Below are positions 36,068 to 61,100 of a DNA stretch of 64,000 nt, piece by piece; position 1 is the stretch's first letter, and the number at the start of each line of letters is the position of its first letter. The stretch spans positions 244,794-308,793 of the forward strand of contig DATNPK010000028.1 of assembly GCA_036703275.1 (NCBI GenBank), written 5' to 3'. Source of the DNA: Coleofasciculaceae cyanobacterium. Its GTDB lineage: Bacteria; Cyanobacteriota; Cyanobacteriia; Cyanobacteriales; Xenococcaceae. Position numbers and translations under genes: made by a program. Below the pieces are notes generated by a model. It did not search any database and was not told the DNA's origin. It worked only from the letters and a program-made list of their open reading frames with translations.

Positions 36068-36345
36068 ATGAATACAGTTATTTTAGGCACAAACCTAGGC
36101 GAACAACATTGAAGCAGGTAAAAGAAACGATACGGTAGAAAGAAATGAGGGCAACGATCTATTGATAGCTGGCTCTGGCAATGACATTCTCTACGGTCAA
36201 GCTGGAAGCGATCGCTTATCTGGTGGAAATGGTAACGACAAGCTCTATGGTGAAAAAGGCAACGACATTTTGGATGGAGGAGACGGTAATGATACCCTAA
36301 ACGGTGATGATGGCAATGATACTCTTTTTGGTCAATTGGGTAAAG
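36068..36345 (+). pseudogene. RTX (haemolysin-type Ca-binding) repeat fragment
   Basis: A short ORF MNTVILGTNLGEQ stops at once. In another frame, from about 36108, RTX nonapeptides follow: GNDILYGQAGSD, GGNGNDKLYGEKG, GGDGNDTLNGDDG. They run without a stop into the transposase remnant at about 36345. RTX repeats bind calcium in secreted proteins. It is probably the C-terminal relic of the same gene family as 49358-49903. Confidence 0.8.
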
Positions 36346-36658
36346 AAATATTCAAAGACTTGTTAATAAAATGGAATTGCTCATTGGTCGAGTTCGGAGG
36401 AGAAAGCGACCACATACACTGTCTTTTTGAAGCAGAGCCAACTATCGAACTAGTATTTTTAATCAAAAATCTAAAGTCAGTTTCTTCTCGCAGAATTAGA
36501 CAGGAATATAGTCAGCACTTAAAGCCTTTTTACTCGAAGAACTACTTTTCTGGAATCGAGCTTATTGTGTTATTTCCGTAGGAGGTAGAGCTAATATAGA
36601 AACGCTACTTATGTACATAGAAAATCAGGACTCACCCGCTAGGTTAAAGCCTCGACTA
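36346..36658 (+). mobile_element. tnpA: IS200/IS605 TnpA (Y1 transposase) remnant
   Basis: In frame with the RTX repeats the reading continues as KDLLIKWNCSLVEFGGESDH, then IHCLF (the HUH histidines) and LIKNLKSVSSRRIRQEY. After a small frameshift near 36545 it reads FWNRAYCVISVGGRANIETL, LMYIENQ. This is the central and C-terminal part of an IS200-type TnpA; about 40 N-terminal residues and the left end are missing. The remnant stops next to the rsmI stop codon at 36660. Confidence 0.85.
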
Positions 36659-59439: not shown

Positions 59440-59697
59440 CTATTTTTCGACTTGTTTTAATTCTTCTCGTAAAACTCGACGTAATGTTTCCTCTAATGGC
59501 TCGCGTTTTTGCTGAATGTATTGTCGCAGTGCGTTGTTAATCGAGGTTTGGTAATTGCCACCACCTTGTTCGTGAACTAAGGCGCGAAACCACTCTAAAA
59601 CATCATCATCTATGCGAATGGTAATGCGAGTTTTCCCTAGCGAAACTGGTTCGACAGCACCCCGTTTTCCTTGACTAAAATCATATTCGTCCACCAT
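59440..59697 (-). CDS. brnA: BrnA-type antitoxin
   Basis: The product has 85 residues. The signature TRITIRIDDDVLEWFRALVH and a ribbon-helix-helix tail (YQTSINNALRQYIQQKR) match BrnA. It lies immediately downstream of brnT with the stop and start adjoining, the usual order for this module. Confidence 0.9.
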   Translation of the reverse strand: MVDEYDFSQGKRGAVEPVSLGKTRITIRIDDDVLEWFRALVHEQGGGNYQTSINNALRQYIQQKREPLEETLRRVLREELKQVEK

Positions 59698-59967
59698 CTA
59701 TTTTTCCTCCTCATATTGTCTACGTTCGTTTCGGGTAGCTTGACGGGCAGATATGAGGCGAATTTCATCATCTCGCAAGGTATAGACGACAACTAAAATT
59801 CTCTTTAAAATGTCTATGCCAATTGTGATAAATCTATCTTCTCCAAAGCGATTGTCAAAAATGGTAATTGCCAATTCGTCAGAAAAAACCGATACAGCAT
59901 CAGCGAAATCTACACCATGCTTACTTAATTTGGTTCGAGCCTTATTTCTATCCCATTGATACCTCAT
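59698..59967 (-). CDS. brnT: BrnT-type ribonuclease toxin
   Basis: The product has 89 residues. It begins MRYQWDRNKARTKLSKHGVD, with FADAVSVFSD, EDRFITIGID, ILVVVYTLRDDEIRLISARQ and ATRNERRQYEE, all typical of BrnT, a RelE-fold RNA-cleaving toxin. First gene of brnTA. Confidence 0.92.
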   Translation of the reverse strand: MRYQWDRNKARTKLSKHGVDFADAVSVFSDELAITIFDNRFGEDRFITIGIDILKRILVVVYTLRDDEIRLISARQATRNERRQYEEEK

Positions 59968-60111
59968 TTACTTATTATATGCACATTTGTACAGACGAAC
60001 ATGAGATAAATCGAAGTGACCAGTGACCCGACAAACACTTCAGCAAAGCGTAGCTGAGGAAGGGTTAGGGATGTATCAACCACAAGTAGGAAAATTTTAT
60101 TAATGATTGAA

Positions 60112-60463
60112 AGTCAGTTTATCTAGCAACAACAGGACGTAAATTGTTCGAGCTTTCCCAATGGTGGGAATTTAAAGACCATAATGGTCAGGATCCCCGC
60201 CGTAAAACGACGGGGCTTGCCTGACCGTTGGTCAACTTTGGGTTGTGCCTGATGGTTTTGTTTACGATCTTGCTAGTATTCCTCCCTGGCTTTGGTGGCT
60301 GCAATTTGGGACCTGGAATATTGCGGCTGTTCCTCATGATTGGGCGTATGTATTCGGCTATTTACTCCGAGTCGAGCGTGGAAATCGCCTCTGTTTAGAC
60401 AAAACGCGAATAAGTAGTCTGGTAAGAGTCCTGATTAGAAAGGCAAATGTTCGACTGTATTGA
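60112..60463 (+). pseudogene. DUF1353-type protein broken by a 44-bp hairpin insertion
   Basis: The left part reads FELSQWWEFKDHNGQ. After the hairpin the frame resumes LWVVPDGFVYDLASIPPWLW, WLQFGTWNIAAVPHDWAYVF, the DUF1353 signature (VPxGFxxDLASxP...HDWAY). The tail runs on as a foreign sequence to 60463, overlapping the PIN gene. The N-terminus lies in a decayed stretch. Phage and plasmid genomes often carry DUF1353. Confidence 0.8.
60186..60234. mobile_element. 44-bp hairpin element with 5-bp target duplication GGTCA
   Basis: GGTCA occurs at 60186-60190 and 60230-60234. Between them GGTCAGG pairs with CCTGACC (60186-60192/60220-60226), and CCCCG CCGT with ACGA CGGGG (60195-60215). Deleting 44 nt joins CAT AAT GGT CAA CTT TGG, restoring the DUF1353 frame exactly. 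This is strong evidence of insertion by a mobilised hairpin. Confidence 0.85.
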
Positions 60464-60782
60464 GCCATTCATCTGCTTCTGAGGCAGTAGCAATCAGTTC
60501 CAAGTCCCTAACAAACTGACCGATAGTTCCACCCAACTGATGCCCAAAAATTAACCTAGCAAAAGAGCGTCCCTGACGTTGCCAATTTTCTGCCAAAGTC
60601 TTGAACAGAATATCCTGGGTAAACAGGACCCGACCCAAGCGACTCGATCGTTCGAGTAATTCCTCATCGGTTAAGGTAGCCGCATTGTCTTCTCTGGCGG
60701 TTAGCACATCCACGCCACGTCGGCGCAGTTGCTCGGTAATGGCTTGAGGAACGTGAACGTCCATGTAAAGCGGTACTGACAT
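60435..60782 (-). CDS. DUF5615-type PIN-like toxin
   Basis: The product has 115 residues. YMDVHVPQAITEQLRRRGVD, VLTAREDNAATLTDEELLER, VLFTQDILF and IFGHQLGG carry the conserved Asp residues of the DUF5615 (Mut7-C/PIN-like) family. It adjoins the DUF433 gene without a gap, the usual toxin-antitoxin pairing for these two families. Confidence 0.85.
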   Translation of the reverse strand: MSVPLYMDVHVPQAITEQLRRRGVDVLTAREDNAATLTDEELLERSSRLGRVLFTQDILFKTLAENWQRQGRSFARLIFGHQLGGTIGQFVRDLELIATASEADEWLNTVEHLPF

Positions 60783-61100
60783 TTACATCAGTCCGACAGA
60801 ACGCATCCTGACTTGAAAGGGAGAGGGGGAAGACTGTTGCTTCTCTGTTACGGCTTGCGACCATTCCGAGCGAATCTCACAGTCGATTTCCTCTTGATTG
60901 TCAAAATAATACGCCATCGCCGAGTGAGCTTCCGAGAGGGTCAGTTCGGGATGTTGACGACACATCTCTGACACCGACCAGCCATAGGCTAGGTAGTCCA
61001 TGACTATCTGAGCCACTCGTACGCGGGGAATCCTCTTTAACTGCGCTGGAGATGACGAACTAGCTTTTTCGAGGTGAAGATAAATGAGTTTACCTGTCAT
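60783..61100 (-). CDS. DUF433 antitoxin-like protein
   Basis: The product has 105 residues. The DUF433 helix-turn-helix part RIPRVRVAQIVMDYLAYGWS, VSEMCRQHPELTLSEAHSAM and AYYFDNQEEID are clear. It lies upstream of the DUF5615 gene with the start codon of the latter directly after its stop. Probably the DNA-binding antitoxin. Confidence 0.85.
   Translation of the reverse strand: MTGKLIYLHLEKASSSSPAQLKRIPRVRVAQIVMDYLAYGWSVSEMCRQHPELTLSEAHSAMAYYFDNQEEIDCEIRSEWSQAVTEKQQSSPSPFQVRMRSVGLM

Follow-up and report, generated by a model that had tools for sequence, protein, structure and literature searches.

What placed a hairpin of 44 nt inside a DUF1353 gene of a Coleofasciculaceae cyanobacterium, and which kind of enzyme could have moved it there? 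The locus lies in a stretch of 64,000 nt that was analysed as a whole and is called the window here. The first-pass annotation had noticed the hairpin between two copies of GGTCA and had read these copies as a target duplication.

The hairpin and its host gene

The features of the locus, in window coordinates, are as follows.

60071..60388, plus strand: remnant of a DUF1353 pseudogene with the insertion (homologues P0001-P0005, tblastn, and Pfam PF07087 on the 3' piece)
60187..60230, plus strand: inserted element, type A, 44 nt, GTCA...CCGTTG (empty/occupied comparison of relatives, 88-copy table)
60187..60192, plus strand: left arm of the outer stem, GTCAGG; on the bottom strand this is the element's 3' end, CCTGAC (fold, family covariation)
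60195..60215, plus strand: core hairpin CCCCGCCGTAAAACGACGGGG, with a conserved C.A mismatch
60220..60226, plus strand: right arm, CCTGACC; on the bottom strand GGTCAGG, a putative guide (fold)
60231..60235, minus strand: target pentamer TTGAC (GTCAA on the plus strand), probably older than the insertion (homologues code G-Q; empty sites of other copies)

The hairpin core is found once in the window, against 0 occurrences expected by chance, and at the position first reported for it. A G precedes the 44 nt at 60187-60230 and GTCAA follows them. GGTCA is indeed present on both sides, and the repeat by sequence is six bases, TGGTCA. The edges of the window element were taken from the family, with a 2-nt uncertainty, GT being present at both edges. 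The fold of the hairpin beats 198 of 200 shuffles (z -3.5), and that of the reverse strand beats all 200 (z -4.0). Rfam models at gathering scores matched nowhere in the window, and a search of plasmid DNA with window 59970-60500 returned zero matches.

The host gene is decayed. Its start at 60071 was read by eye, and the likely start lies in another frame. The DUF1353 homologues are of 163-165 aa in four cases and of 122 aa in one, and the four that cover the insertion site read x-G-Q-L-(W/L)-V-V-P. Because the homologues code G-Q at the insertion point, GGTCAA was likely the original site in the window. By tblastn, residues 8-40 align to the window with one in-frame TGA; residues 39-91 align after the insertion, and no match continues past residue 91. 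The gene is broken in at least three ways, and the hairpin is one of them. A precise insertion into the G-Q site, as first proposed, agrees with the net addition of 44 nt, but the accompanying claim that removal of the hairpin restores the gene does not hold: a frame change and an in-frame stop precede the hairpin, and homology ends after residue 91 of 163. Nor does the reading frame fix the boundary of the insert, because removal of 44 or of 50 nt keeps the same frame. Two loci of our set, L094 and L095, were checked by pattern for the DUF1353 site and did not match.

A BrnA antitoxin and BrnT toxin pair (Pfam) lies on the minus strand just upstream of the pseudogene (59440-59967), and DUF5615 and DUF433 neighbours (Pfam) lie on the same strand at 60435-61100, a pair that resembles a toxin-antitoxin module. 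Elsewhere in the window, at about 36342-36551, a fragment matching IS200-type TnpA (L063) and GGxGNDxL repeats form an in-frame fusion within a single open frame; the RTX-like reading of these repeats was made by eye.

A family of small hairpins in related cyanobacteria

The first-pass annotation had proposed a search of the complete genome for the hairpin core, and this revealed further exact and near copies. The genome (G000, 5.62 Mb in 116 contigs) holds, besides the window, one more exact core copy and seven places with two or three mismatches. Family ends are found at seven of these nine places (two exact, five near) and are lacking at L005 and L009. Together with the copies in relatives, this bears out the original view of a small non-coding hairpin that is precisely inserted and needs an enzyme in trans. 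The family comprises well over a hundred small hairpins, mostly of 44 or 48 bases, in related cyanobacteria. Among 89 copies, which range from 43 to 49 nt, the main form is type B (48 nt, GTCA...CCGTTG) with 74 copies; type A (44 nt) accounts for eight and other lengths for seven. These 89-copy tables required a left end matching the guide and are biased for a left/right comparison. A type C form ends in TGAC-TTC (L024, L025, L030), and further variants carry a longer tail or a loop insertion.

A pattern that included the flanks gave 48 type B copies, spread over 14 of the 27 genomes of the own family. A covariance model (R1) matches 26 of the 27 at E <= 1e-3, with 0 to 78 matches per genome, counts that include opposite-strand matches of the palindrome and rest on the scoring of 150 candidates in each genome. 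With stricter filters and E <= 1e-8, matches were obtained in 14 of 148 genomes of the order, seven of them in the own family, six in f13 and one in f24. An exact 25-26-base pattern is present in 60 stretches. Its carriers are Hyella patelloides, Pleurocapsa, Myxosarcina, Hyellaceae, Xenococcaceae and Pleurocapsales, and furthermore the unicellular strain SU3, Lyngbya aestuarii BL J and Cyanobacteria bacterium QS_4_48_99. Among viral contigs, the same pattern had no match. Titles and the opening parts of abstracts, in mainly open-access literature, do not describe the hairpin family.

The stem shows compensatory changes. In an alignment of 31 distinct rows with 15 pairs, 96.1% of the cells are paired, and double-sided changes number 31, where shuffled rows give 9.2 and slid controls 1 to 5. 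Pair 5-40, for example, is C-G in 15 rows, G-C in 14, A-T in one and unpaired in one. L040 has two bases fewer per arm than type C, in a comparison made by eye.

Ten loci (L035, L037, L038, L061, L176, L180, L182, L196, L201 and L214) carry insertions of 18 to 48 nt, e.g., CCTAAAGGATACCGCTCCGCATAT or CCCCATTCGAGGATAAAT, in the core loop after GCCGT, and these form a second layer of nested tiny repeats. The 5' flank of L092 (G004:C63) shows a type C-like element with a loop insertion, whose terminal GTCA is the insertion point of a type B element. L258 (G016:C32) holds a different, longer version of the element at the site orthologous to that of L148, so this place may have been hit or remodelled again in another genus.

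The insertion site

Left and right ends were compared in 88 type B copies, which were aligned in register by inner anchors only. Of the left tetramers, 86 are GTCA and two are not; of the right ones, 65 are GTCA and 23 are not. The right pentamer GTCAA is present in 50 of the 88. The third base is not C in 16 of 88 right motifs, compared with one of 88 left motifs (Fisher p 1.4e-4). This table supersedes one of mixed lengths (n=121), which was out of register and gave 28 vs 35 (p 0.38). Other copies were to be checked for flanking duplications, and in 25 of the 88 the left and right motifs are unequal.

Empty sites reveal which of the two motifs is old. The joined flanks of 40 copies (12 + 28) were searched in 27 genomes and then aligned. 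An element-free counterpart without a gap within 10 bases of the junction was found for 14 of the 40 joins (L006, L008, L020, L030, L040, L042, L049, L072, L080, L089, L158, L165, L174 and L202). Identity of the counterpart is at least 80% in 12 of the 14, and the net gain is one element length in each. The best empty site belongs to L158, which has GTCA on the left and GTAAA on the right; its counterparts L217 (99%) and L218 (97%) both read GTAAA. At L170, with GTTAA on the right, seven further counterparts have GTTAA and a gap of 1-2 bases nearby. The right third base is not C in L006, L040, L080, L158, L165 and L170, and the empty site has the same base in all six. The left end of these six is GTCA, except for L040, whose GTGA equals its target. 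In six of the 14 joins (L006, L040, L049, L072, L158, L202), and in L170, the empty pentamer is exactly the right-hand pentamer. The empty pentamers of L042 and L089 mostly begin with GT and have other changes, the relatives of L089 reading mostly GTTAA vs GTCAA.

In the other six joins (L008, L020, L030, L080, L165, L174), whose counterparts are 75-93% identical, the empty site does not begin with GT. Later change can explain these sites, but insertion may instead have exchanged two target bases for GT. The alignments of L157, L168 and L175 have gaps near the junction, two further relatives at L042 and one at L148 hold other extra DNA, and the remaining joins of the 40 had no usable counterpart in the 27 genomes.

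As judged from these alignments, the 48 (or 44) nt were inserted before the GTNAA of R|GTNAA, at best GTCAA, without duplication and with a 2-nt ambiguity, GT lying at both edges. The right-hand motif is the old target. The left GTCA is the element's own end, which is constant where the target is GTAA, GTTA or GTGA. Read on the bottom strand, the element follows TTNAC, mostly TTGAC.

Two other readings of the flanks were rejected. The first is target duplication, as in the first-pass annotation, since left and right are unequal in those 25 copies and, at the empty sites, the third base agrees with the right motif. The second is a Y1 reading on the top strand, with the left GTCA as target and GGTCA as element end. 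It was attractive, as one IS605-type family ends in GGTCAA, and it was rejected because the right third base follows the target in L158, L170, L006, L040, L080 and L165.

In the window, the apparent GGTCA repeat comes from a likeness between the element's own end (GTCA on top) and its target. It is this end, beside a look-alike preferred target, that had been taken for a 5-bp duplication and held against a Y1-type mechanism. As the GGTCA pair is not a duplication, it gives no argument against such a mechanism.

Copies in open frames

Frames of at least 40 codons are open on both sides of 24 of the 89 copies and not of the other 65. In 22 of the 24, the two sides are in frame across 48 nt, and 20 of these 22 (20 of the 89 copies) read through the element without a stop, in both orientations. 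By our own reading, three of the six frames of the type B consensus are stop-free; given this, 20 of 22 has a p of 6e-5. Such avoidance of frames with stops suggests that disrupted genes are selected against. Type B adds 16 residues to predicted open frames, and the 44-nt type A shifts the frame. Divisibility by three is inherent in the 48-nt length of type B; together with the stop-free frames, this length would let type B sit inside genes.

How the element may move

Insertion without duplication after TTGAC points towards a Y1-type mechanism. We consider it somewhat probable that these tiny hairpins, which enter mostly TTGAC sites without duplication, are moved as single-stranded DNA in trans by an IS200/IS605-type (Y1 HUH) transposase. 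On the bottom strand the order would be the target TTGAC, the element CAAC-GGTCAG-core-CTGAC, and the flank (Y). GGTCA at the foot of the hairpin would serve as a guide for two pairings, one with the target TTGACC and one with the terminal CTGAC of the element, at its opposite end. In the window, the possible partners of the guide-like GGTCAGG are TTGACC and CCTGAC, the 3' end of the element. Cleavage by the enzyme would take place 3' of TTGAC and of CTGAC, and strand exchange would leave either a restored donor or a clean insertion. Our proposal is a Y1 mechanism that uses a single hairpin and a single guide. To our knowledge, there is no precedent for a single hairpin that is read at both ends by one guide. 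Single copies bear on the pairing in different ways. The target TTCAC of L040 matches its changed guide, GGTGA. In L210 the guide and own end still match each other and the target does not, and L006 and L080 have a TTCAC target and an unchanged guide.

IS elements of relatives were compared with the family. The boundaries of six multi-copy Y1 IS families, from G009, G011 and G013, were drawn from comparisons among two to five copies per family. Their left edges are TTGAC (two), GTGAC (two), GTGAT (one) and AATGAAC (one), and their right ends are approximately GGTCAA, GATAA, GCTAA (three) and GTTAA. In its site the element is thus similar to IS605-type elements of close relatives. Its own 3' end CTGAC is unlike the right ends of the two TTGAC-type families (GGTCAA and GATAA), and its two termini were never found together on one IS among the IS loci examined. 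An IS605-like right-end hairpin (L267) agrees with the type A core in 21 of 23 bases, with a score of 36, and the best of 51 other Y1 loci scores 28. Descent from an IS605-like right-end hairpin is possible.

Searches for the mobiliser tied no transposase to the element, either by co-occurrence (27 genomes) or by neighbourhood (229 loci). Across the 27 genomes, counts of Y1 genes and of elements are not correlated (rho 0.28, p 0.15). Among 53 fetched Y1/RAYT loci from nine genomes, only L061 contains an element copy, of type A, apparently at the GGTCAA end of a decayed tnpA. One of the 229 element loci has a TnpB-like ORF, 1.1 kb away, in a scan that used few seed proteins and loci of about 1 to 8 kb, and that missed L061 owing to nested insertions. 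These negative results count against the Y1 model, as do the few weak, RAYT-like Y1 matches of copy-rich G012, the differing 3' end and the published view of single REPs.

It is unlikely, in our estimation, that the element is of the REP type and is spread by RAYT (TnpA-REP) rather than by an IS200/IS605 TnpA. Its size and single hairpin fit REPs, which are of 21-65 nt, and RAYT subclasses 2.4, 2.7 and 2.8 are described in cyanobacteria (PMC6006769, in the excerpted text). In addition, G012 has many copies and only two Y1 matches, both weak and RAYT-like by our own reading of their motifs against a table in PMC6006769. However, none of the fetched RAYT-like genes has an adjoining copy, and the 5' GT[AG]G tag given for subclasses 2.7 and 2.8 is absent from the element. 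Moreover, 20 of the 89 copies lie in open frames, whereas REPs are described as largely extragenic (PMC6006769).

Somewhat less likely again is a small dispersed repeat of the SDR kind, spread by another, possibly RNA-based, route. The Nostoc SDRs of Elhai 2008 are said to be eight sequences of 21-27 nt, very small mobile palindromic repeats with nested insertions. Our element is likewise cyanobacterial, very small and palindromic, with compensatory changes and nested insertions, and the search of element and Y1 loci for a mobiliser, which gave none, also fits this explanation. On the other hand, at 43-49 nt the element is outside this length range and about twice the SDR size. Its target is like that of IS605-type families of relatives, and its hairpin is like an IS605-like right end. 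SDR5 is reported to insert in HIP1 (excerpted text of PMC4390886, which cites Elhai 2008).

A DDE-type MITE that makes a 4-5 bp target duplication (GTCA or GGTCA) is very improbable: the window copy, with GGTCA on both sides, would by itself agree with it, but a duplication of constant length is not found across the 88 copies, of which 25 have differing motifs, the third base at the empty sites is the one in the right motif, and L158 with L217 and L218 speaks against it. We give hardly any credence to a passive structure (a transcription terminator or regulatory hairpin) copied by recombination, for although the hairpin is G+C-rich and 65 of 89 copies are without 40-codon frames open on both sides, occupied and empty sites lie at a fixed motif in unrelated places and both orientations occur in open frames.

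Relation to known elements

IS200/IS605 elements are described as inserting 3' of a tetra- or pentanucleotide without duplication, with a guide beside the hairpin (PMC7290912, PMC6006769). The hairpin family resembles them, as described in excerpts of PMC7290912, in the lack of target duplication, in insertion at a fixed motif and in subterminal hairpins. It differs from them in that it has no tnpA, has one hairpin and has its own 3' end CTGAC, not GGTCAA or GATAA. The nearest published kind would be the PATEs of Haloquadratum walsbyi, which include 52-bp terminal-only remnants of the IS605 type; according to the authors the 52-bp version may be mobilisable (PMC3119063, in part). PATEs are like the present family in the IS605-related palindrome, the lack of terminal inverted repeats and of target duplication, and a non-coding length (PMC3119063). 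Both the absence of target duplication and insertion 3' of a fixed tetra- or pentanucleotide, the marks of IS200/IS605 elements and PATEs, are found in the family. PATEs, as the excerpts have it, are archaeal and have near-terminal palindromes at both ends, whereas the present element is one hairpin of mostly 44 or 48 nt. Unlike in PATEs, its target was read from empty sites and copies lie in open frames, and a parental IS with the same two ends was not found among the IS loci.

REPs share with the element a short imperfect hairpin, a guide-like motif at its foot and a proposed HUH link, and GTAG REP families exist in cyanobacteria, as far as the excerpted texts go (PMC6006769, PMC3733652, PMC3116915). 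REPs carry GTAG or CGTC tags (PMC3733652); the element ends in GTCA...CCGTTG, on the bottom strand CAACGG...TGAC, and has neither tag. Single REPs are held to be defunct, and doublets (REPINs) mobile (PMC3116915). The REPtron arrangement, with copies flanking a RAYT gene, was not found in the 53 fetched Y1/RAYT loci. Rickettsia palindromic elements (RPE) are likewise described as inserted in frame in protein genes (PMC3733652, PMC10969869), and such insertion was found in predicted frames for 20 of the 89 copies. Compared by description in these partial sources, RPE are of about 150 bp, whereas our element, of 48 nt and adding 16 residues, belongs to another phylum and has a defined target.

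What the family may mean

The family seems ordinary in principle; what is unusual is the economy of a single hairpin and the frame-compatible length. A further reading, which is possible but doubtful, is that the element is the smallest complete single-strand transposition substrate, a 48-nt hairpin in which one guide would read the target TTGAC as well as the end of the element, so that the one hairpin would do the work of two IS ends, and at the same time a protein-compatible element that would write 16-residue segments, in alternative frames, into cyanobacterial genes. The case illustrates that a seeming target duplication can be an element's end meeting its own preferred site. The insertions with empty counterparts form a set for testing single-hairpin transposition by HUH enzymes. 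If the predicted frames are truly expressed, the writing of palindromic elements into proteins would extend to these cyanobacteria, which are far removed from Rickettsia.
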